From Prevotellaceae bacterium (GTDB lineage Bacteria > Bacteroidota > Bacteroidia > Bacteroidales > Bacteroidaceae), in assembly GCA_029219385.1 (NCBI GenBank), contig JAQXTH010000025.1, forward strand, positions 1-33,980: a DNA stretch of 33,980 bases, in the 5' to 3' direction. Within the stretch, counting starts at the first letter, position 1, and each line of letters begins with the position of its first letter. Made by a program: the position numbers and the translations under genes. The notes under the pieces were generated by a model. The model made no database searches, was not told where the DNA came from, and saw only the letters and a list, made by a program, of their open reading frames with translations. Positions 25,752-33,980 of the stretch are shown one piece after another.

Positions 25752-26789
25752 TTAACAGTAATCATCTATACAATCACCGCCAGTCCATTCTTTTCCCTGA
25801 AAGAGGGTAATTGTCTTTAATGCTCCATTTTCTTCAAAAAACGAACCTCCATTTTTATGAATATATTTGTCGTTCAAAATATATACATAGGCAATATACC
25901 ATTGTTTTAATCCTTCTGGATTATGTGTCGCGATGCAGAGCCGTTGCCTATCATCTGATATAGCGAATTCAATAATAGAATTGATTCCATAGGTGTTGTT
26001 TGAAAATACTTTCCCTTTTTCCAATGATGAATAATAGGCCTCTAATGTGAGTGTGTCTGTAGGACATAAAGGAAACTCTGTTGGTGTTTTCCAATCTTCT
26101 TGCATAGCATTAGAAGTTAATGATTCCACTATCGATGGCAATGTTCTTTTTTCCTGTTGTTCATATGCACTTGGTATTCGTGTAGACAATTGTGTCCAAT
26201 CGTGACGAGCCCTCTCAGACTGCAAATCCTTGAATATCCATTCACCTATGCCATTACCTTGTGGAGTGCTAACAAATTCTGCGTCTTCTTTACTCCATTT
26301 CTCCAGATTCTTCCTGCATTTTGCTGCCTCCGCCTCCGAGACAGTACGCATCCAAGAAAAATTAGGGTCTGATGTTCTTTCTCGTAGCAAGGCTGGATTA
26401 TCTAAAAATGCATCTATACTTCCACATATATTGATTATTCTTCTGCGAGTTATTGGATTATTCAAGACGTTTTCAAGTTTTGTTACCCAATGAAGGTTTT
26501 CTGCTCTATTATTACATCTGTTTGTATCTTTATGGTCAACTACCATTCCCTCTGATTTTTGATGCCCCCAAAATGCGGTCGCTACAACTTGATGGACACA
26601 AATATTTGAGGCAAAAAACATGTATCCATTTTTCTCATTCTTTGTACCAAAAGTCCATTTGTTGTCCATTGGCCTTATTCGGCAATCTTTTTTAGGATGC
26701 CTCATGATGGCACCATTGTCTCTTATAGAATAAATATCTCCCTTATATTCACATGAAACCTCAACCTTGAAATTGTTTATGTCAATCAT
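25752..26789 (-). CDS. HNH endonuclease-like protein with unknown C-terminal domain
   Basis: A 345-residue protein. The N-terminal 110 residues resemble phage and homing-type HNH_3 nucleases: VHQVVATAFWG with H66, VVDHKDTNRCNNRAENLHW (D85-H86, N93-N94, E97-N98) and TKLEN. Before it, YSIRDNGAIMRHPKKDC resembles the NUMOD4-like DNA-contact segment found with such nucleases. Residues about 115-345 carry no family I recognise; they include YYSSLEKGKVFSNNTYGIN and LKQWYIAYVYILNDKYI. It starts 8 bases after the XRE regulator stop, so the two are coupled. Possible roles are a mobile nuclease or a defence effector; sequence alone does not decide. Confidence 0.75.
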   Translation of the reverse strand: MIDINNFKVEVSCEYKGDIYSIRDNGAIMRHPKKDCRIRPMDNKWTFGTKNEKNGYMFFASNICVHQVVATAFWGHQKSEGMVVDHKDTNRCNNRAENLHWVTKLENVLNNPITRRRIINICGSIDAFLDNPALLRERTSDPNFSWMRTVSEAEAAKCRKNLEKWSKEDAEFVSTPQGNGIGEWIFKDLQSERARHDWTQLSTRIPSAYEQQEKRTLPSIVESLTSNAMQEDWKTPTEFPLCPTDTLTLEAYYSSLEKGKVFSNNTYGINSIIEFAISDDRQRLCIATHNPEGLKQWYIAYVYILNDKYIHKNGGSFFEENGALKTITLFQGKEWTGGDCIDDYC

Positions 26790-26797
26790 AACAGTGT

Positions 26798-27298
26798 CTA
26801 TTTAAGGTCAACAAAATCTATTTTCTTTCCTAAAGCGGCTGCAATCTTTGATAGAATATCAAGCCCTACGGAATATCTTCCTTTCTCTATACGACTAAGA
26901 TTAGCTGCATCTATGCCAGCCAGTCTTGCCAAATCACGGGCTTCCATGCCTCTTTCTTCACGTATCTGACGAATTCGTCCACCGATACGTGCACGATCCT
27001 TATGACGAGTACCAGTACTGATGCCTATGATTCCACCGCCAATGGCAAATTGCATAGATTCTCGCCAAATAGAATTTGTCATTTCTTCCTTGTCATCGGA
27101 AAAGTTCTTGTCAAACAAGACTTCCAACCAATGAAGTTCATAATCTTGTGTTTCCTTACTTGTATATGTACCTATCTGGCACAAGACAGTAAAAACTTCT
27201 CCATCAGGAGCTATTACTTCGACCTCATTCCGACTAATAATCTGAGCTGACGATTGTGTCGGAATCTCTAAAAAAGAATGTTGACTTTTGTCTGTCAT
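26798..27298 (-). CDS. XRE-family transcriptional regulator
   Basis: A 166-residue protein with a C-terminal helix-turn-helix of the Cro/C1 (XRE) type at residues 107-160 (IRQIREERGMEARDLARLAG, then DAANLSRIEKGRYSVGLD). The N-terminal 100 residues are not a known sensor domain; they contain EVIAPDGEVFTVLC and an amphipathic stretch with a GGGIIGIS segment. Most XRE regulators carry the HTH at the N-terminus, so this order is less common. It is the first gene of the unit with the HNH protein and probably controls its own promoter at 27358. Confidence 0.85.
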   Translation of the reverse strand: MTDKSQHSFLEIPTQSSAQIISRNEVEVIAPDGEVFTVLCQIGTYTSKETQDYELHWLEVLFDKNFSDDKEEMTNSIWRESMQFAIGGGIIGISTGTRHKDRARIGGRIRQIREERGMEARDLARLAGIDAANLSRIEKGRYSVGLDILSKIAAALGKKIDFVDLK

Positions 27299-27693: not shown

Positions 27694-27916
27694 AAAATGA
27701 GCTCTTTAGATAGCAACCAGCCAAAATTGCCCAAAATATTTTCATAAATAATCTTAAAACGGCTTTTTACCCCTGTCATAGTTTTTTCTCTTTGCCGAGT
27801 GCCTTGAACTATATATTTTCGTCTGTTCAAAATTTGTACCGTTTTGAATTTGTTGTTTTCAAGAGAATACTGTGGCTCAGCGTGTTAGGAGATATAAAAA
27901 AGGTTTCCACATGAAT

Positions 27917-28010
27917 TATAGTTCCCTAACTTAGAACACTATAGTTTTCTAGTTAGAATACTTAAGTGTTTTAGTTAGAATTCTTAAGTGTTCTAATTTA
28001 GGGAACTATA
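27917..28010. repeat. 94-bp imperfect palindrome made of 22-bp tandem repeats
   Basis: The outer 24 bases (27917-27940 and 27987-28010, starting TATAGTTCCCTAA) are inverted copies with one mismatch. The inner halves pair at about 15 of 23 positions around a central CTTAAG at 27961-27966. The same span can be read as three direct repeats of 22 bases at 27929, 27951 and 27973 (for example AGTTAGAATACTTAAGTG), so it is both tandem and palindromic. It resembles a small miniature element or regulatory array and lies 214 bases before clpB. Confidence 0.7.
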
Positions 28011-28223
28011 AAATAAGCGCGAAAAACACCGAGAAATTCAACACAAGACTTTCTTTCGGCAATCAATAAAACTCCGCCACACAGCGTTGCTTAACTGCCG
28101 AACTGACAGACTGTTATAATGCAAACAAAACCTCAAATCTGCCATTTTGACAGATTTAAGATCTTAGGCACAAATAATGAATATAGTATTGGCAAAAAAC
28201 AAAACACAAAAACATAGAGAACC

Positions 28224-30857
28224 ATGAATCTTGAAAAATTTACCATTAAAGCAGGCGAGGCTCTGCAACAAGCCGTGAAAGAGGCGCAGCGCCACTCGCA
28301 ACAGGCCATTGAGCCCGAACACCTCTTTAAGGGCATAACCCTTGAGAGCGACAACGTGATGAACTTTCTGTATGGTAAACTGGGAGTAAACGCAGAAAAT
28401 CTCAACCGCACAGTGGAGGCACAAATAGCCTCGCTGCCAAACGTGACCGGCGGAGAACCGCTCCTCGGACGCGCCACACAAAAAGTGATCGACACTGCCG
28501 AACAGATTGCCCAAAAAATGGGTGACGATTTTATCGGCACAGAAGTATTGCTGCTCGCAATACTCGACACCGACTGCCAGATGAGCCGCATTCTTAAAGA
28601 TGCCGGCTTCACGCGCGACGCTTTGCTCAATGCGATACGCGAACTCCGAGGCGGCGAACAAGTGAAATCGGCCTCAGCCGAAGACACCTATCAGTCACTC
28701 GCAAAATATGCACGCGACCTCGTCAAGGCCGCACGCGAGGGAAAACTCGACCCCGTGATAGGCCGCGACGAAGAGATACGCCGTGTTTTGCAGATTTTGA
28801 GCCGACGCACCAAGAACAACCCCATCCTTTTGGGCGAACCGGGCACCGGCAAAACGGCAATCGTCGAAGGACTTGCCAACAGAATAATGAAAGGCGACGT
28901 GCCCGAAAACCTCAAAAACAAGCGTCTCTTCTCGCTCGACATGGGCGCACTGCTCGCCGGAGCCAAATACAAGGGCGAGTTTGAAGAACGTCTCAAGAGC
29001 GTTGTGAAGGAGGTAGAGCGTTCACAAGGCGAGATAATCCTCTTCATCGACGAGATACACACCCTCGTAGGGGCCGGTGGAGGACAAGGGGCAATGGATG
29101 CCGCCAACATTCTCAAACCGGCGTTGAGTCGTGGCGAACTGCGCTCAATCGGTGCCACCACACTCGATGAATATCAAAAGTATTTTGAAAAGGACAAGGC
29201 TCTGGAACGCCGTTTCCAAGTGGTCATGGTCGACGAACCCTCAATGGAAGACAGCATCTCTATCTTGCGAGGCATTAAGGAACGCTATGAGAACCACCAC
29301 AAGGTGCGTATTCAAGACGATGCAGTGATTGCCGCTGTTTCGCTCTCCGAGCGCTATATCACCAACCGCTTCCTGCCCGACAAGGCCATAGACCTGATGG
29401 ACGAGGCTGCCGCAAAACTGCGCATAGAGCGCGACTCCATGCCCGAAGAACTCGACGAACTCCACCGCCGCATAAGCCAATTGGAAATAGAGCGCGAGGC
29501 TATAAAACGCGAGGGCGATAAAGACAAACTCCAACAACTCTCAAGCGAGATTTCTGCACTTAAAGAACAGTCTGACTCCATGCAGTCTAAATGGTTGCAC
29601 GAAAAAGAACTTGTCAACAAAATACAGCAAAACAAGCAGGAGATAGAACAACTGAAATTTGAAGCCGAGCGTGCCGAACGCGAAGGCAACTACGCAAAAG
29701 TGGCAGAAATACGCTATGGTCGACTGCAACAACTCTCAACAGAGATAAACAACATTCAGCAACAACTGGCCTCCACACAGGGTGGCAGTGCCATGATAAA
29801 AGAAGAGGTAACCCCCGACGACATTGCCGAAGTGGTGAGCCGCTGGACCGGCATACCCGTGAGCCGTATGCTCCAAAGCGAACGTGAGAAACTCCTCCAC
29901 ATGGAGGAAGAGTTGCACCACCGCATTATAGGTCAAGACGATGCAATCGAGGCAGTGAGCAACGCTGTGAGACGCAGTCGTGCCGGAGTGCAAGACCCCA
30001 AACGGCCTATCGGCTCATTCATCTTTATGGGCACCACCGGTGTGGGCAAGACCGAGCTTGCCAAGGCCTTGGCCGAATACCTCTTCAACGACGAGACCAT
30101 GATGACACGTATCGACATGAGCGAATATCAAGAGAAATTCAGCGTGAGCCGACTGATTGGTGCACCTCCGGGCTATGTGGGCTACGACGAAGGCGGCCAA
30201 CTCACCGAGGCAGTGAGACGCAAACCATACAGCGTGGTGCTTTTCGACGAGATAGAAAAGGCTCACCCCGACGTGTTTAACATCTTGCTGCAGGTGCTCG
30301 ACGATGGTCGTCTGACCGACAACAAAGGTCGCACCGTCAACTTCAAAAACACCATAATCATCATGACCTCAAACCTCGGCAGCCAATATATTCAAGAGCG
30401 CATGGCAGAGATGGAGGGCAAGAACGAAAAGGAATGCACCGACATCATGGAGCAAACACGCGCCAAAGTTTTGGAGATGCTCAAACAAAACATCAGGCCC
30501 GAGTTCATCAACCGTATCGACGACATCATATTGTTCCGTCCGCTCACTCGCAGCCAAGCCGACGACATTGTGCGCCTGCAAGTTGCCGGAGTCAACGCCA
30601 ACCTTCGTGAAAACGGCCTGGAACTCCGCGTGACCGACGCTGCCATACACCTGCTCGGCAAATTGGGCTACGACCCCGAGTTTGGTGCGCGTCCCATCAA
30701 GCGAGCCATACAACGCTACCTGCTCAACGACCTCAGCCGCGCCATTTTGGCCGACACTTCTCTCGACCGCACTCTTCCCGTTGTAGCCGATGCCGAAGGC
30801 GACAAAATTATTTTCCGCCAAGACAGAGAAACACAATCCTCGAGCGACAAACACTAA
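28224..30857 (+). CDS. clpB: ATP-dependent disaggregase ClpB
   Basis: An 877-residue Hsp100 chaperone that, with DnaK, pulls proteins out of aggregates. In order: a Clp N-domain (residues 1-150), the first AAA+ domain with Walker A GEPGTGKT at 204-211 and Walker [11 protein letters not shown], a long middle coiled-coil domain (about 410-530, rich in E, K and Q), and a second AAA+ domain with Walker A GTTGVGKT at 603-610 and [10 protein letters not shown]. The M-domain separates it from ClpA and ClpC. The ATG at 28224 starts [14 protein letters not shown], the usual beginning. It stands alone between an AT-rich gap and a strong terminator. No CIRCE element was seen. Confidence 0.96.
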
Positions 30858-30880
30858 ACAGACGCTACGGGCAAATACAA

Positions 30881-30928
30881 AAAAATCCCGGCCATGCCGC
30901 ATTTCAATGCCACATGGTCGGGATTTTT
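30881..30928 (+). terminator. Terminator after clpB
   Basis: AAAAATCCCGGCCATG (30881-30896) pairs with CATGGTCGGGATTTTT (30913-30928), with one G-U pair and a 16-base loop, then a run of T. It lies 24 bases after the clpB stop. Confidence 0.9.
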
Positions 30929-31040
30929 TATGTGTATTAGACATCGGTGAATTGCACAAAACAAGTTAATATACCATAAACAAAAGTCAACAAACGCCTT
31001 AGCTTATAAAAACATTTCCAATTTGAAAACTATTTCAATT

Positions 31041-31144
31041 TTTATTGATATATTTGCGTTAAAATTTTGAAGTATCTATGCCCAACCCCATCTTGAGACG
31101 CTAAGCAATATTTCAAAACTTCAGAATGTCGATATATCAATAAA
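31041..31144. repeat. 13-bp inverted repeat pair upstream of the type I locus
   Basis: TTTATTGATATAT at 31041-31053 and its exact reverse complement at 31132-31144 enclose 78 bases, 56 bases before the hsdM remnant. TATATTTG at 31049-31056 overlaps the left arm and matches a -7 box, so the repeat may sit on the promoter of the locus. The rest of the 30929-31199 gap shows no gene. Confidence 0.5.
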
Positions 31145-31199
31145 CTTTTTCGACCTGACGAAGTAGAATTCGACATAATACTCTAATATAAAAACCTAT

Positions 31200-31520
31200 A
31201 TGGACAACAAACAATATAACGCTCTCTTCTCCTTTATCTGGAACATTGCCAACGATGTTCTGGTTCATGCTTTTGAGAAAGGCGACTACAAGAAAATAAT
31301 ACTGCCCTTCATGGTGCTGCGTCGCCTTGGTGTGCTCCTTGAGCCCACCAAGGCTTTCTATGAGCAGGAGGTGAAGCCATACGATGCAGAGGCAGCATTC
31401 GGAGACCCCGTTATCGGCTACGAATTCTCCTTCACCAAGTATTTCTACAAGCCTGTGCAGCTCCGCACCCTCGATGCCATCTTGGAGGATATCACACCGA
31501 TGGACTGTTGGACGAAATAA
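31200..31520 (+). pseudogene. hsdM remnant (type I DNA methyltransferase, internally deleted)
   Basis: A 106-codon ORF joining the two ends of a type I restriction methyltransferase. Residues 1 to about 57 (QYNALFSFIWNIANDVLV, KIILPFMVLRRL) are the HsdM N-terminal domain. From about residue 58 (YEQEVKPYDAEAAFGDPVIG, then YEFSFTKYFYKPVQLRTL) it matches the HsdM C-terminus. The whole catalytic middle, with the SAM-binding and NPPY/F motifs, is missing. The last codons are out of frame: the DNA still encodes TDGLLDEIIK and a stop, but one frame away (31496-31528), so the ORF ends as PMDCWTK instead. It is almost certainly not an active methylase. It forms the left edge of the cassette array. Confidence 0.75.
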
Positions 31521-31528
31521 TAAAGTAA
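31496..31528 (+). repeat. Cassette junction repeat, copy 1 (hsdM 3' end)
   Basis: A 33-base sequence encoding TDGLLDEIIK and a stop, in a frame different from the ORF it lies in. It recurs at 32635-32667 and 33790-33822 with a few changes each. It lies 4 bases before the first DUF1016 ATG. Confidence 0.85.
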
Positions 31529-31532
31529 AAGT

Positions 31533-32558
31533 ATGAATGAATTAGTCGTAATTACCCCGGAACCTACACAAGAATATGTGAGTCTCGTCTCACATATTGC
31601 TAATCTTTGGGAAGATGCTCGCAACAATGCCATTACAGCTGTTAACGAGTCATTGCTGATGACAAGTTGGAAAACAGGTCAATATATAGTAGAATTTGAG
31701 CAAGAAGGTAATGCCAAGGCGCGATATGGCGAACGACTCCTTGTGAACCTTTCCAAAGACTTAACAAGACTGAGGGGACGTGGTTTCAGTCGTTCCAACC
31801 TCACATATATGCGTAAGTTCTATCTTGCATTCCCAAAATGTGAGACGATTTCTCACAAATTGACATGGAGCCATTATTTCGAACTTCTCAAATGTGATGA
31901 TTCTCTCGAAATGCAGTTCTACATGGTGCAAGCCATCAATGAAGGATGGAAGGTAAAAGAACTGAAAAGACAAATCAACAGTTCCCTCTTTCAGCGTCTT
32001 GCATTGAGCACAGACAAAGAAGGTGTTCTGGCGATGTCAAAGCAAGGACATGTTGTGCAACAACCATCAGACATAATCAAAGATCCTTATGTCTTGGAAT
32101 TTACGGGACTCCCACAGAGGAAGCGATATAAGGAAAGTGAATTGGAAACGGCATTGAAAGCAAATATGGAACAATTCCTTCTGGAACTTGGCAGAGGATT
32201 CGCTTTTATAGGTCGTCAATACGATATTCCTATCGGTAGTCGTCGTTTCAAGGTGGATTTAGTGTTCTATCATGCCATCTTGAAATGTTATGTCCTGATA
32301 GATTTGAAACGAGCAGAGATAAAGCATGGCGACATTGGACAAATGAACATGTATCTGAATTACTTCAAGACAGAGATATGCCAGCCTGACGATAATCCTC
32401 CTATCGGTATTGTCCTTGGCGCAAAGAAAGACGAACTGTTGATGGAGTATGCCATGGATGGTATCAGCAATCAGCTATTTGCTGCACGCTACCAGCTATA
32501 CCTGCCAAACAAAGAAGAACTTCAGGCGCAGCTCAATTACATCATTGATAATCAGTAA
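31533..32558 (+). CDS. DUF1016/YhcG-family PD-(D/E)XK nuclease, copy 1
   Basis: A 341-residue protein of the DUF1016 family, common inside type I restriction loci. The N-terminal part (about 10-170) is the DUF1016_N helical region, with YGERLLVNLSKDLTRLRGRG and LTWSHYFELLKC. The C-terminal nuclease fold has LELGRGFAFIGRQYDIP, the metal-binding D242 in VDLVFYH, D257-L-K259 in LIDLKRAE, and the helix GQMNMYLNYF. The catalytic set is intact, so it could be an active nuclease; its target is unknown. The ATG follows the hsdM-end repeat by 4 bases, and its stop is 4 bases before the chimeric ORF at 32563. It is cargo of the first cassette. Confidence 0.88.
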   Translation: MNELVVITPEPTQEYVSLVSHIANLWEDARNNAITAVNESLLMTSWKTGQYIVEFEQEGNAKARYGERLLVNLSKDLTRLRGRGFSRSNLTYMRKFYLAFPKCETISHKLTWSHYFELLKCDDSLEMQFYMVQAINEGWKVKELKRQINSSLFQRLALSTDKEGVLAMSKQGHVVQQPSDIIKDPYVLEFTGLPQRKRYKESELETALKANMEQFLLELGRGFAFIGRQYDIPIGSRRFKVDLVFYHAILKCYVLIDLKRAEIKHGDIGQMNMYLNYFKTEICQPDDNPPIGIVLGAKKDELLMEYAMDGISNQLFAARYQLYLPNKEELQAQLNYIIDNQ

Positions 32559-32562
32559 TCCT

Positions 32563-32667
32563 ATGACACAACGATACAATACATATAAGGACAGTGGGGT
32601 GCAATGGCTCGCTCCCCGCAGCATAGAGCGTGATACCGACGGACTGTTGAACGAAAAAATGAAGTAA
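32563..32667 (+). pseudogene. Chimeric mini-ORF: HsdS N-terminus joined to HsdM C-terminus, copy 1
   Basis: A 34-codon ORF. Codons 1-16 (MTQRYNTYKDSGVQWL) are the start of a type I specificity subunit HsdS, whose next residues are normally GEIP. The rest (SIERDTDGLLNEKMK, then stop) is the end of HsdM. The two genes normally stand in the order M then S, so this S-start to M-end joint cannot come from a simple deletion. It lies 4 bases after the first DUF1016 gene and 4 bases before the second. Any peptide made would lack function; it may serve as the joint for cassettes. See the near-copy at 33721. Confidence 0.75.
32635..32667 (+). repeat. Cassette junction repeat, copy 2 (hsdM 3' end)
   Basis: The second 33-base copy (TDGLLNEKMK and stop), in frame at the end of the chimeric mini-ORF. 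It is followed by GCGTATGAATGAATT, nearly as after copy 1, where AAAGTATGAATGAATT follows. Confidence 0.85.
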
Positions 32668-32671
32668 GCGT

Positions 32672-33700
32672 ATGAATGAATTGACGACAAACGGCAATGT
32701 CTTGAACGACATCCGCAGGATTATAGAAGATGGCAGACGGCAGGCGTATGCTGCTGCAGGTCAAATAGCCATTGCTACCTATTGGAACATTGGCAGGCGA
32801 ATTGTTGAGGAAGAACAAAACGGACAGGAGCGAGCCAAGTATGGCACTAAACTTATCGCCAATCTTGCCCGACAACTTACGTTGGAATATGATTCGGGAT
32901 TCAGCTATCGCAGTCTCAATGAATATCGTCGTTTTTATCTGTGTTTCAGTGATTTGGAGATTATGCACACGCGCGTGCACAATTTGACGTGGAGTCATCT
33001 TCGTATCATCATGCGCGAAGCAACGCCGGAAGGAAGGCAATGGTATATAAAGGAGGCATCTGAGCAGATGTGGAGCACACGTACGTTGGAACGTAATGTT
33101 TCAACCCAATACTATGGTCGCATGATGGCTTCGCAACGTCAGCAATTAGAACTTCCGTTGCCGGTAGTTGAAGGTGAAGACCCGAAGGAATACATCAAGA
33201 ATCCCGTTGTGGCAGAATTCATGGGCTTTCGCAAGGATACTAAATTCGACGAATCTGAGATGGAGCAAGCCTTGTTGGACAACCTTCAGCAGTTTATCTT
33301 GGAGCTTGGTCGTGGCTTTGCCTTTGTAGATAGACAGAAACACATCAAGACGGATACCGAGGACTATTATATCGACTTGGTGTTCTACAACTATCGTATG
33401 AAGCGATTTGTCTTGTTTGAGCTGAAGACACACAAACTGACACATCAAGACATGGGTCAACTGGATATGTATGTACGTATGTTTGACGATCTGGTGAAGG
33501 GAGAGGACGATAATCCGACCCTGGGTGTGTTGCTTTGCACCGAAACAGACAAGACCATTGCCAGGTATTCCGTACTGCATGAGAGCGAACAGTTGTTTGC
33601 CTCAAAATATATGGCCTACATGCCAACCGAAGAAGAACTGCGTCGAGAGATAGAACAGCAAAAGCAATTCTTTCTCGCTCAACATGGCAGAGATGTTTAA
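32672..33700 (+). CDS. DUF1016/YhcG-family PD-(D/E)XK nuclease, copy 2
   Basis: A 342-residue DUF1016 protein of the same family as copy 1 but from another subgroup. N-terminal region: RAKYGTKLIANLARQLTLEY and FSYRSLNEYRRFYL. Nuclease fold: LELGRGFAFVDRQ, D235 in IDLVFYNY, E250-L-K252 in LFELKTHKL, and GQLDMYVRMF. By eye the two proteins share only blocks such as LELGRGFAF and the catalytic strands, so they are old paralogues or separately acquired. Both begin MNEL after the same repeat. It starts 4 bases after the mini-ORF stop and ends 20 bases before the next one. It is cargo of the second cassette. Confidence 0.88.
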   Translation: MNELTTNGNVLNDIRRIIEDGRRQAYAAAGQIAIATYWNIGRRIVEEEQNGQERAKYGTKLIANLARQLTLEYDSGFSYRSLNEYRRFYLCFSDLEIMHTRVHNLTWSHLRIIMREATPEGRQWYIKEASEQMWSTRTLERNVSTQYYGRMMASQRQQLELPLPVVEGEDPKEYIKNPVVAEFMGFRKDTKFDESEMEQALLDNLQQFILELGRGFAFVDRQKHIKTDTEDYYIDLVFYNYRMKRFVLFELKTHKLTHQDMGQLDMYVRMFDDLVKGEDDNPTLGVLLCTETDKTIARYSVLHESEQLFASKYMAYMPTEEELRREIEQQKQFFLAQHGRDV

Positions 33701-33703
33701 CTC

Positions 33704-33710
33704 AAGGAGG
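33704..33710 (+). promoter_or_regulatory. Strong Shine-Dalgarno sequence before the second mini-ORF
   Basis: AAGGAGG ends 10 bases before the ATG at 33721. Purine-rich sites this complete are rare in Bacteroidota and fit the start of a former hsdS gene. Nothing similar precedes the first mini-ORF. Confidence 0.5.
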
Positions 33711-33720
33711 ACTAACCATT

Positions 33721-33822
33721 ATGACACAACGATACGATATATATAAGGACAGTGGGGTGCAATGGCTCTACCCCAGCATAGAGCGCGATACCGATGGATT
33801 GTTGGACGAAATAATGAAGTAA
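33721..33822 (+). pseudogene. Chimeric mini-ORF: HsdS N-terminus joined to HsdM C-terminus, copy 2
   Basis: A 33-codon ORF of the same build as that at 32563: MTQRYDIYKDSGVQWL from HsdS, then SIERDTDGLLDEIMK and a stop from HsdM. By hand alignment 92 of 102 positions agree with the first copy, with one 3-base gap at the joint. The joint falls at the same place in both (after GVQWL), so both descend from one event or arose by recombination between copies. The next gene starts 22 bases later. Confidence 0.75.
33790..33822 (+). repeat. Cassette junction repeat, copy 3 (hsdM 3' end)
   Basis: The third 33-base copy (TDGLLDEIMK and stop). What follows (AAACTGCTTGGAAAAAG) differs from copies 1 and 2, marking where the third cargo begins. 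Confidence 0.85.
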
Positions 33823-33844
33823 AAACTGCTTGGAAAAAGAAATT

Positions 33845-33980
33845 ATGGGACAGAAAGAACAGATAAAACTCTTTGAGCAAAAAAGAGTGCGCAGTGTTTG
33901 GGACGAAGAGAAAGAGGAATGGTTCTTCTCGGTGATTGATGTGGTGGAAGTACTGACAGATAGCACTAATCCAACAGATT
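33845..33980 (+). CDS. BRO-N family protein, N-terminal part
   Basis: The first 45 codons of a gene cut by the window edge. The sequence IKLFEQKRVRSVWDEEKEEW followed by FFSVIDVVEVLTDSTNPTD is the start of the BRO-N (phage antirepressor-like) domain, found in phage regulators, DinD-like proteins and accessory proteins of type I restriction loci. The ATG at 33845 is 22 bases after the third hsdM-end repeat. It is the third cargo of the array and unrelated to the two nucleases. Whether another HsdS-start repeat follows it lies outside the window. Confidence 0.75.
   Translation, partial: MGQKEQIKLFEQKRVRSVWDEEKEEWFFSVIDVVEVLTDSTNPTD

Follow-up and report, generated by a model that had tools for sequence, protein, structure and literature searches.

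Candidate defence genes stacked at hsdS-hsdM joints in the remnant of a type I restriction locus of a Prevotellaceae bacterium

The window analysed here, 33,980 nucleotides in length, is the entire contig JAQXTH010000025.1 (C25) of a draft genome of a Prevotellaceae bacterium (assembly GCA_029219385.1, G000; 62 contigs, 87.6% complete). Its last 2.8 kb are occupied by an array in which accessory genes, hereafter cargos, alternate with pieces of the type I restriction genes hsdM and hsdS: an hsdM remnant, a first DUF1016 gene (a), linker 1, a second DUF1016 gene (b), linker 2 and, at the contig end, the first part of a Bro-N gene (Table 1). The hsdM remnant comprises 106 codons with an HsdM_N domain match (2e-8, Pfam). 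In blastn comparison with the intact hsdM of a related locus (L026), positions 31175-31354 matched the 5' end of that gene and 31353-31543 its 3' end region. The original prediction described a repeating unit of hsdM end, accessory gene and hsdS start, and these repeats were recovered. A repeat search found a 59-nt hsdS-start family at 32562 and 33720 (90%) and a 52-nt hsdM-end family at 31477, 32616 and 33771 (67% and 88% to the reference copy). Both full joints, in which an hsdS start is fused to an hsdM end, were found with a 102-nt query (100% and 90% identity, E 4.5e-48 and 1.0e-32), and an additional hsdM end was located at 31496-31528 (94%) with the linker as query; because of these E values and the additional hsdM end, a chance origin of the joint repeats is excluded. 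The segment that opens the first unit matches the region before and at the start of DUF1016 gene b over 48 nt (87.5%), and both DUF1016 genes start with MNEL after an hsdM end. The first unit accordingly has the hsdM end that was predicted for it; the hsdM upstream is not intact. The two DUF1016 nucleases (YhcG_C) are divergent as claimed, with 36.5% protein identity as against about 90% identity of the linkers; the 45-aa Bro-N piece of the window had no Pfam match and is named from its 63% match to a Bro-N protein.

Table 1. Features of the array at the right-hand end of the window.
Feature	Position	Strand	Remarks
hsdM remnant	31200..31520	+	5' part joined to 3' part; ~1.5 kb of middle gone; last codons out of frame
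Copy 1 of hsdM 3' end plus ATGAATGAATT start	31496..31543	+	Repeat comparison
DUF1016 gene a, YhcG-type PDDEXK nuclease, 341 aa	31533..32558	+	YhcG_C 4.7e-59, DUF1016_N 1.9e-42; PADLOC PDC-S02
Linker 1: hsdS codons 1-16 running in frame into the final ~15 codons of hsdM	32563..32667	+	
DUF1016 gene b, 342 aa	32672..33700	+	YhcG_C 1.1e-49; PADLOC PDC-S02
Linker 2: hsdS start running in frame into an hsdM end	33721..33822	+	
Bro-N gene, 5' part, truncated at contig end	33845..33979	+	63% to Bro-N protein of strain An873

Judged from the sequence, contig C38 is probably the right-hand neighbour of C25, with the array continuing there across a join that we infer. At E <= 0.001, linker matches in the genome were found on C25 and otherwise only on C38. 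The opening of C38 (L005:1-879) holds the 3' part of a Bro-N gene (129 codons), an hsdS start, a short hsdS remnant and the last ~210 nt of hsdR, after which a ThiF-family gene follows on the opposite strand; the cargo of the window is thereby placed after the hsdM remnant and before the hsdS start and hsdR end of C38. Identity to the Bro-N protein of An873 is 63% for the N-terminal piece on C25 and 97% for the C-terminal piece on C38, so the gap between the contigs could hide a further unit, and the two Bro-N pieces may belong to two genes. The rightward extension that had been proposed as a check thus yielded the next hsdS start, while hsdS and hsdR proved to be remnants there rather than intact genes. 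All three hsd genes at the locus are deletion remnants; elsewhere in this genome, at 87.6% completeness, a single N6_Mtase match above the cut-off was detected, in a 1302-codon frame on C6. An empty-site search in the genus, aimed at clpB beside tcdA, used the 3' end of clpB as query, which matched 14 of 19 genomes including the own one; tcdA was not found beside clpB in the 11 regions inspected (two of them of only ~1 kb), and any genes beyond clpB looked mostly like others, such as an L25-type ribosomal protein gene and pth (by eye).

PADLOC best hits place the cargos among catalogued candidates for embedded defences. The two DUF1016 proteins matched PDC-S02 (1.5e-132 and 2.4e-128), the Bro-N/Fic protein of locus L021 matched PDC-S04 (6.2e-154), and PDC-S13 (4.7e-126) was obtained for the Bro-N relative of An873, which was scanned in place of the window's own Bro-N piece. 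Single-cargo versions are found between hsd genes in L026 (DUF1016 b) and L021 (Bro-N/Fic). For DUF1016 b, non-synonymous and synonymous divergence (dN and dS) were 0.035 and 0.289 between the window and An873, both of which have gutted loci, and 0.066 and 0.928 between the window and L026. With dN well under dS the gene is being kept by purifying selection. Its PADLOC class suggests that it may be kept for phage defence, making it a candidate defence gene. The findings suggest that such cargos can persist after loss of the restriction system that acquired them.

Among 399 genomes of the family, six matched part of the linker. The full joint is present in three of separate genera, namely the own genome, Prevotellamassilia timonensis strain An873 (G128) and G138. 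The full joint was found in the own genome only in a draw of 393 genomes of the order, in G138 only among 139 genomes of its genus, and in An873 only among 58 genomes of its genus. The family, order and genus draws overlap, and in the 399- and 393-genome scans at most two candidates were scored per genome, with misses possible. The window reads DUF1016 a, linker, DUF1016 b, linker, Bro-N and, on C38, hsdS start. The order in An873 is hsdM end, DUF1016 b, an hsdM end joined at AAATAA, Bro-N/Fic fragment, linker, Bro-N and hsdS start, and that in G138 is hsdM end, DUF1016 b fragment, hsdM end, Bro-N/Fic, linker, Bro-N fragment, hsdS start and hsdS end, and Fic. Neighbouring genes differ between the three loci, and in each of them hsdM, hsdS and hsdR are either missing or gutted. 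Two other genera thus carry the joint with differently ordered cargos, so that the linker is not a peculiarity of this genome, which counts in favour of the original prediction. The linker had no match in viral contigs (exact pattern), plasmids or phages. Viral contigs yielded 22 Bro-N relatives (identity <= 66%) and, at pattern-scan sensitivity, no relatives of Bro-N/Fic or DUF1016 a.

The joint had been proposed to be a fixed site that takes up accessory genes by recombination, an idea that the results support at best in part. The folding of four linkers was no better than that of shuffled sequences (z 0.4 to 1.0) and gave no attC-like folded site, Rfam gave zero matches in 30800-33980, and no recombinase or tyrosine integrase was present among the eight flanking proteins scanned on C25 and C38, the remaining genome not having been searched. 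The full joint is also rare in the family, and the same type of scar recurs at very different genes, namely hsdR, an alaX-like gene, an mcrC-like gene and a dnaX-like promoter (some of them named by eye). The joint looks like a scar from the addition of cargo rather than a device adding it. The hsdS start and hsdM end share one frame, the two joints of the window forming open reading frames (ORFs) of 34 and 33 codons; this ORF is open in 4/4 linkers, whose length differences are multiples of three. The joint ORF may act as a translation coupler, because it brings the stop-codon context of hsdM to the next cargo. A conserved small peptide encoded by the joint is disfavoured, as a joint in G309 is out of frame and several substitutions alter a residue.

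Related type I loci carry one cargo or none. Loci L109-L111 and L113, of the same hsdM family, have hsdM-hsdS without cargo between them, and L026 has hsdM, DUF1016 b and hsdS, with an hsdR broken by frameshifts. Locus L021 (G095) contains complete hsdM, Bro-N/Fic, hsdS and hsdR, together with a 58-nt fragment of DUF1016 b between Bro-N/Fic and hsdS (90% to L026, E 7e-19), which is preceded by ATGGAGAGATATAGCGAA, resembling the hsdS start of L110. As this fragment lies within a complete locus, stacking preceded gutting there. L112 (G309), a locus with some masked bases, consists of an hsdM-hsdS fusion, Fic, an hsdR/hsdS joint, another ORF (helix-turn-helix-like start, by eye) and a complete hsdR. 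In its joint (L112:9665-9841, G309:C87) the first ~32 codons of hsdR run, out of frame, into the final ~30 codons of hsdS. A scar of this kind is thus also seen at the hsdS/hsdR junction, where it does not code through. In L111:11416-13881 and L112:10930-13398, from two genera, hsdM and part of hsdS lie in one frame of 821-822 codons. Locus L025 (479-1876) holds DUF1016 b and ~45 nt of hsdM end with an identical 17-bp direct repeat on both sides; the rest of hsdM and hsdS went undetected in this locus, and the gene looks like a cassette moved alone. A supposed scrap of the Bro-N/Fic end before linker 2 of the window was rejected, the similar letters being the 3' flank of DUF1016 b in L026.

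Self-comparison of 116 loci revealed short direct repeats near many DUF1016 and Bro-N genes. In a flank test, the 400 bp before each gene were compared with the 400 bp after it and scored as positive at >= 35 bits. The set of 60 loci was reduced to 55 by leaving out five partial DUF1016 matches (L079-L083); L067, L181 and L215 are one genome, counted once, and L020 and L024 lie on the same contig. ATG ORFs of 250 to ~530 aa from the same loci, some perhaps not genes, served as controls. Flank duplications were found at 16/55 DUF1016 genes vs 12/209 other ORFs (Fisher p = 7.6e-6), or at 16/52 when three near-duplicates were removed. Only one of 300 mismatched flank pairs was positive, and that pair (L065, L068) has an alaX-like target in common. 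Seven of the 12 positive controls are themselves of the cargo class (Bro-N in L024 and L066, Bro-N/Fic in L027, DUF1016 in L052 and L066, and Fic, named by eye, in L037 and L077). Without cargo-class controls, a post hoc grouping, the figures become 16/55 vs 5/202 (p = 2.5e-8); one of the five remaining positives, in L067, is an ORF stacked ahead of an alaX-like gene. The duplications of the 16 positives are 26-146 bp long. The positive L044 comes from a Lentisphaerae-labelled record, so the pattern may extend beyond Bacteroidota. Longer or additional repeats lie near the DUF1016 genes of L057, L059, L061 and L063, reaching 2.4 kb in L063.

In 11 of the 16 positives, the start or promoter of the following gene is copied. 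The downstream ATG lies within the right copy in six (L037, L044, L065, L069, L073, L076), the genes concerned being hsdR (L037, L076), hsdS-like (L069, L073), alaX-like (L065) and a membrane-type ORF (L044); in L076 the aligned copy starts ~15 nt behind the ATG. A promoter or leader is copied in four, before a dnaX-like gene (L052), a RhuM-like ORF (L027) and other ORFs (L056, L072). L036 has a degenerate ORF start copied and L024 an hsdM end, and four show another intergenic repeat (L042, L059, L063, L077). In L069, L073 and L036 the copied start is now the N-terminus of the DUF1016 protein, and in L066 the Bro-N gene is preceded by a duplicate of the start of the mcrC-like gene that comes after it. 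The names alaX, dnaX, mcrC, panB, pgk, RhuM (L027) and hsdS (L069, L073) were given by sequence reading, while hsdR (L037, L076) is backed by tblastn. No common motif was seen by eye where scars end at the different targets, as expected for non-homologous joining.

The alaX-like gene provides a case that can be polarised. In G684, a RhuM-Fic ORF (Pfam) stands in frame after the first 59 nt of the alaX-like gene and is directly followed by the complete gene, the two start copies being 98% identical; in G601 and G746, of the family of G684, the alaX-like gene lies upstream of pgk and has a single start. Among 12 listed plasmid matches to the RhuM-Fic protein, 10 align from residue 24 at the earliest and two from 15, and its first ~20 residues therefore look borrowed. 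Start copies were found by DNA self-comparison in G684 and G734 only among 30 alaX-like loci, 12 of which were judged on that comparison alone, the start peptide motif being unrecognised in them. G734 has three stacked ORFs between DUF1016 and the alaX-like gene. In L215:3981-8421 (= L067), DUF1016 and three lipoprotein-like ORFs stand before the alaX-like gene, and a start copy heads each of the three.

We propose, with a probability of about one half, that the array consists of candidate defence genes stacked at a type I hsdM/hsdS junction by one-sided, that is homology-facilitated illegitimate, recombination. Each new cargo would arrive, flanked by an hsdM end and hsdS, on DNA of a related locus. 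This DNA would undergo homologous recombination in hsdS at its right end; its left end, produced by a break within the last ~50 bp of hsdM, would be joined non-homologously inside the resident hsdS, ~48 bp behind the start. The resident cargo would be retained and the new one placed next to hsdS, which would be restored from the incoming copy, the old start remaining before the cargo as the scar of hsdS start and hsdM end. The joint would later have spread and been re-used by ordinary homologous recombination, and hsdM, hsdS and hsdR would have been lost by internal deletions after stacking, with the cargos retained. In favour of this are the joints, open in frame in 4/4 cases and present in three genera including An873, the cases of L112, L021 and G684, and the excess of flank duplications. 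Across the loci the cargo differs while the start of hsdS, or of another target, is common. A single step of this kind would account for the scars at the other targets as well, the homology lying in the target gene on the right and the non-homologous join within its start on the left.

Several observations weigh against this proposal. The one-sided step is inferred, not observed, a donor molecule or event never having been seen. The four joints have nearly identical end points and therefore count as one origin, not four. At the 35-bit threshold 39/55 DUF1016 genes are without flank duplication, and the copies of the 16 positives are 74-100% identical, so that many of the events are not recent. 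Nine plasmid DUF1016 loci, examined among 15 listed matches of 453 matching records, gave one positive, in Persicobacter (Bacteroidota), three of the nine being from Bacteroidota. Between the G684 site and its relatives, further upstream genes differ as well. Five of six alaX-like scars end within about two codons and have a short following motif in common, a clustering that hints at common descent or site preference. Directly upstream of the alaX-like gene of L212 (G502) lies a 673-codon ORF like a large serine recombinase (by eye), and the alaX-like gene could on this ground be an integration target. On an IncHI2 plasmid of Citrobacter freundii (L217), an unannotated DUF1016 match in two pieces was noticed beside an aminoglycoside resistance gene.

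A wider reading, tentative and somewhat doubtful, is that of a general process in Bacteroidales and perhaps other bacteria by which DUF1016, Bro-N, Fic and RhuM genes would be inserted behind starts or promoters of genes such as hsdS, hsdR, mcrC, alaX and dnaX. Some 25-150 bp would be duplicated, keeping the host gene working, and repetition would build arrays, of which the hsdS::hsdM joint would be one product. A cargo may in the process adopt the first codons of the host gene as its own N-terminus.

The joint could instead be what remains of a deletion between tandem type I loci (hsdM-X1-hsdS-hsdR-hsdM-X2-hsdS), with loss of everything between a point 48 bp into hsdS and another ~50 bp short of the next hsdM end. 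The order of the fused pieces fits, as does the hsdR::hsdS joint of L112, and the core genes are gutted in all three joint-bearing loci; in hsd loci taken alone the same product would be expected, a further point against one-sided addition. Such deletions leave unexplained the scars that lack an upstream gene end (hsdR start, leader and DUF1016 in L037, the alaX-like case of L186, the promoter copy of L052) and require identical end points every time, or later copying. No tandem pair of whole loci was noticed in the gene maps, in which no dedicated search for one was made. We consider this explanation unlikely.

Similarly improbable is a dedicated nuclease or recombinase that inserts single-gene cassettes behind starts or promoters and duplicates a short target, either by a staggered cut with fill-in or as a target-site duplication. 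Consistent with it, the duplications copy the local target and vary between sites, the targets are diverse, DUF1016 genes show an excess, scars cluster in the alaX-like gene, and the hsdM end and DUF1016 b of L025 lie within identical 17-bp repeats. The length of the duplications is variable, however, shared cassette ends were not seen by eye, no recombinase was among the proteins scanned beside the window array, and hsd loci would demand that the incoming DNA stop precisely in front of hsdS.

It is very unlikely that a unit was duplicated in tandem and its cargo then diverged or was replaced. The direct order, the similarity of the linkers and the MNEL starts behind an hsdM end speak for it. 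Simple duplication of a whole unit nevertheless does not fit, as the original prediction had rightly argued, because the cargos are of unrelated families or only 36.5% identical between ~90% identical linkers, and L186 and L065 hold one cargo yet two starts. An assembly artefact, conceivable for a metagenome-derived draft in which the array reaches a contig end, is highly improbable, since the same joint lies inside contigs of 53 kb and 51 kb in An873 and G138.

Embedded defences are said to be the subject of a 2024 preprint by Payne et al., and the PDC-S class reportedly comes from such work. The embedded defence genes of restriction-modification operons (PDC-S02, S04, S13) resemble the window in that DUF1016, Bro-N and Bro-N/Fic genes lie inside a type I operon; unlike them, the window has several stacked cargos with fused gene scraps between, in a gutted host operon. 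Integron arrays are similar in having unidirectional single-gene cassettes with short repeats between. Unlike in integrons, the linkers of the window have no folded site, no integrase was found among the eight flanking proteins scanned, and the repeats are pieces of the local target that differ by locus. In shufflon-like switching of hsdS, the conserved hsdS start is re-used as recombination homology, as here; unlike such loci, the window array has no second hsdS gene, and the cargo changes rather than the target-recognition domains. Inverted pairs reaching into the array were only weak (25-27 nt) in the repeat search.

Accessory genes inside type I loci were already known, examples being DarTG2 between hsdS and hsdR in enteropathogenic Escherichia coli (PMC12255303), PrrC in a type IC locus, ecoprrI (PMC12707154), and the PADLOC PDC-S families. 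In the type VI secretion system (T6SS) immunity arrays of Vibrio cholerae, modules are successively added at one place, for which the authors invoke a one-side-anchored mechanism akin to homology-facilitated illegitimate recombination (PMC5361080). That process has been described in three competent species and also during conjugation of E. coli, where its frequency is low (PMC3240628). Embedded defence genes and arrays built by such recombination are each known already. Like the window, the T6SS arrays are heterogeneous and grew stepwise at one place; a new module there displaces the effector and leaves immunity genes, whereas in the window the cargo sits behind a gene start that is duplicated. 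Gene families and hosts differ as well.

In the open-access literature searched, whose coverage mostly excludes preprints and subscription papers, we came across neither a description of gene starts duplicated next to DUF1016, Bro-N, Fic or RhuM genes nor one of an hsdS::hsdM joint, and within that literature the start-copy signature appears to be new. A start or promoter duplicated from the gene that follows is a sequence signature for gains of candidate defence genes and can be scanned for in any genome. It helps to order such gains, may explain how single genes enter operons without breaking them, and would make the entry of embedded defence genes into restriction operons directly testable.

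Two further features of the window lie outside the array. Upstream of clpB, on the minus strand, an HNH endonuclease gene (25752-26789) stands beside a Cro-type helix-turn-helix gene (26798-27298). A palindrome at 27916-28011 consists of two 48-nt arms, 81% complementary and without spacer; AACTTAG/CTAAGTT-rich repeats on C38 (L005:2020-2125) resemble it by eye, perhaps as members of a small dispersed repeat family of the genome.

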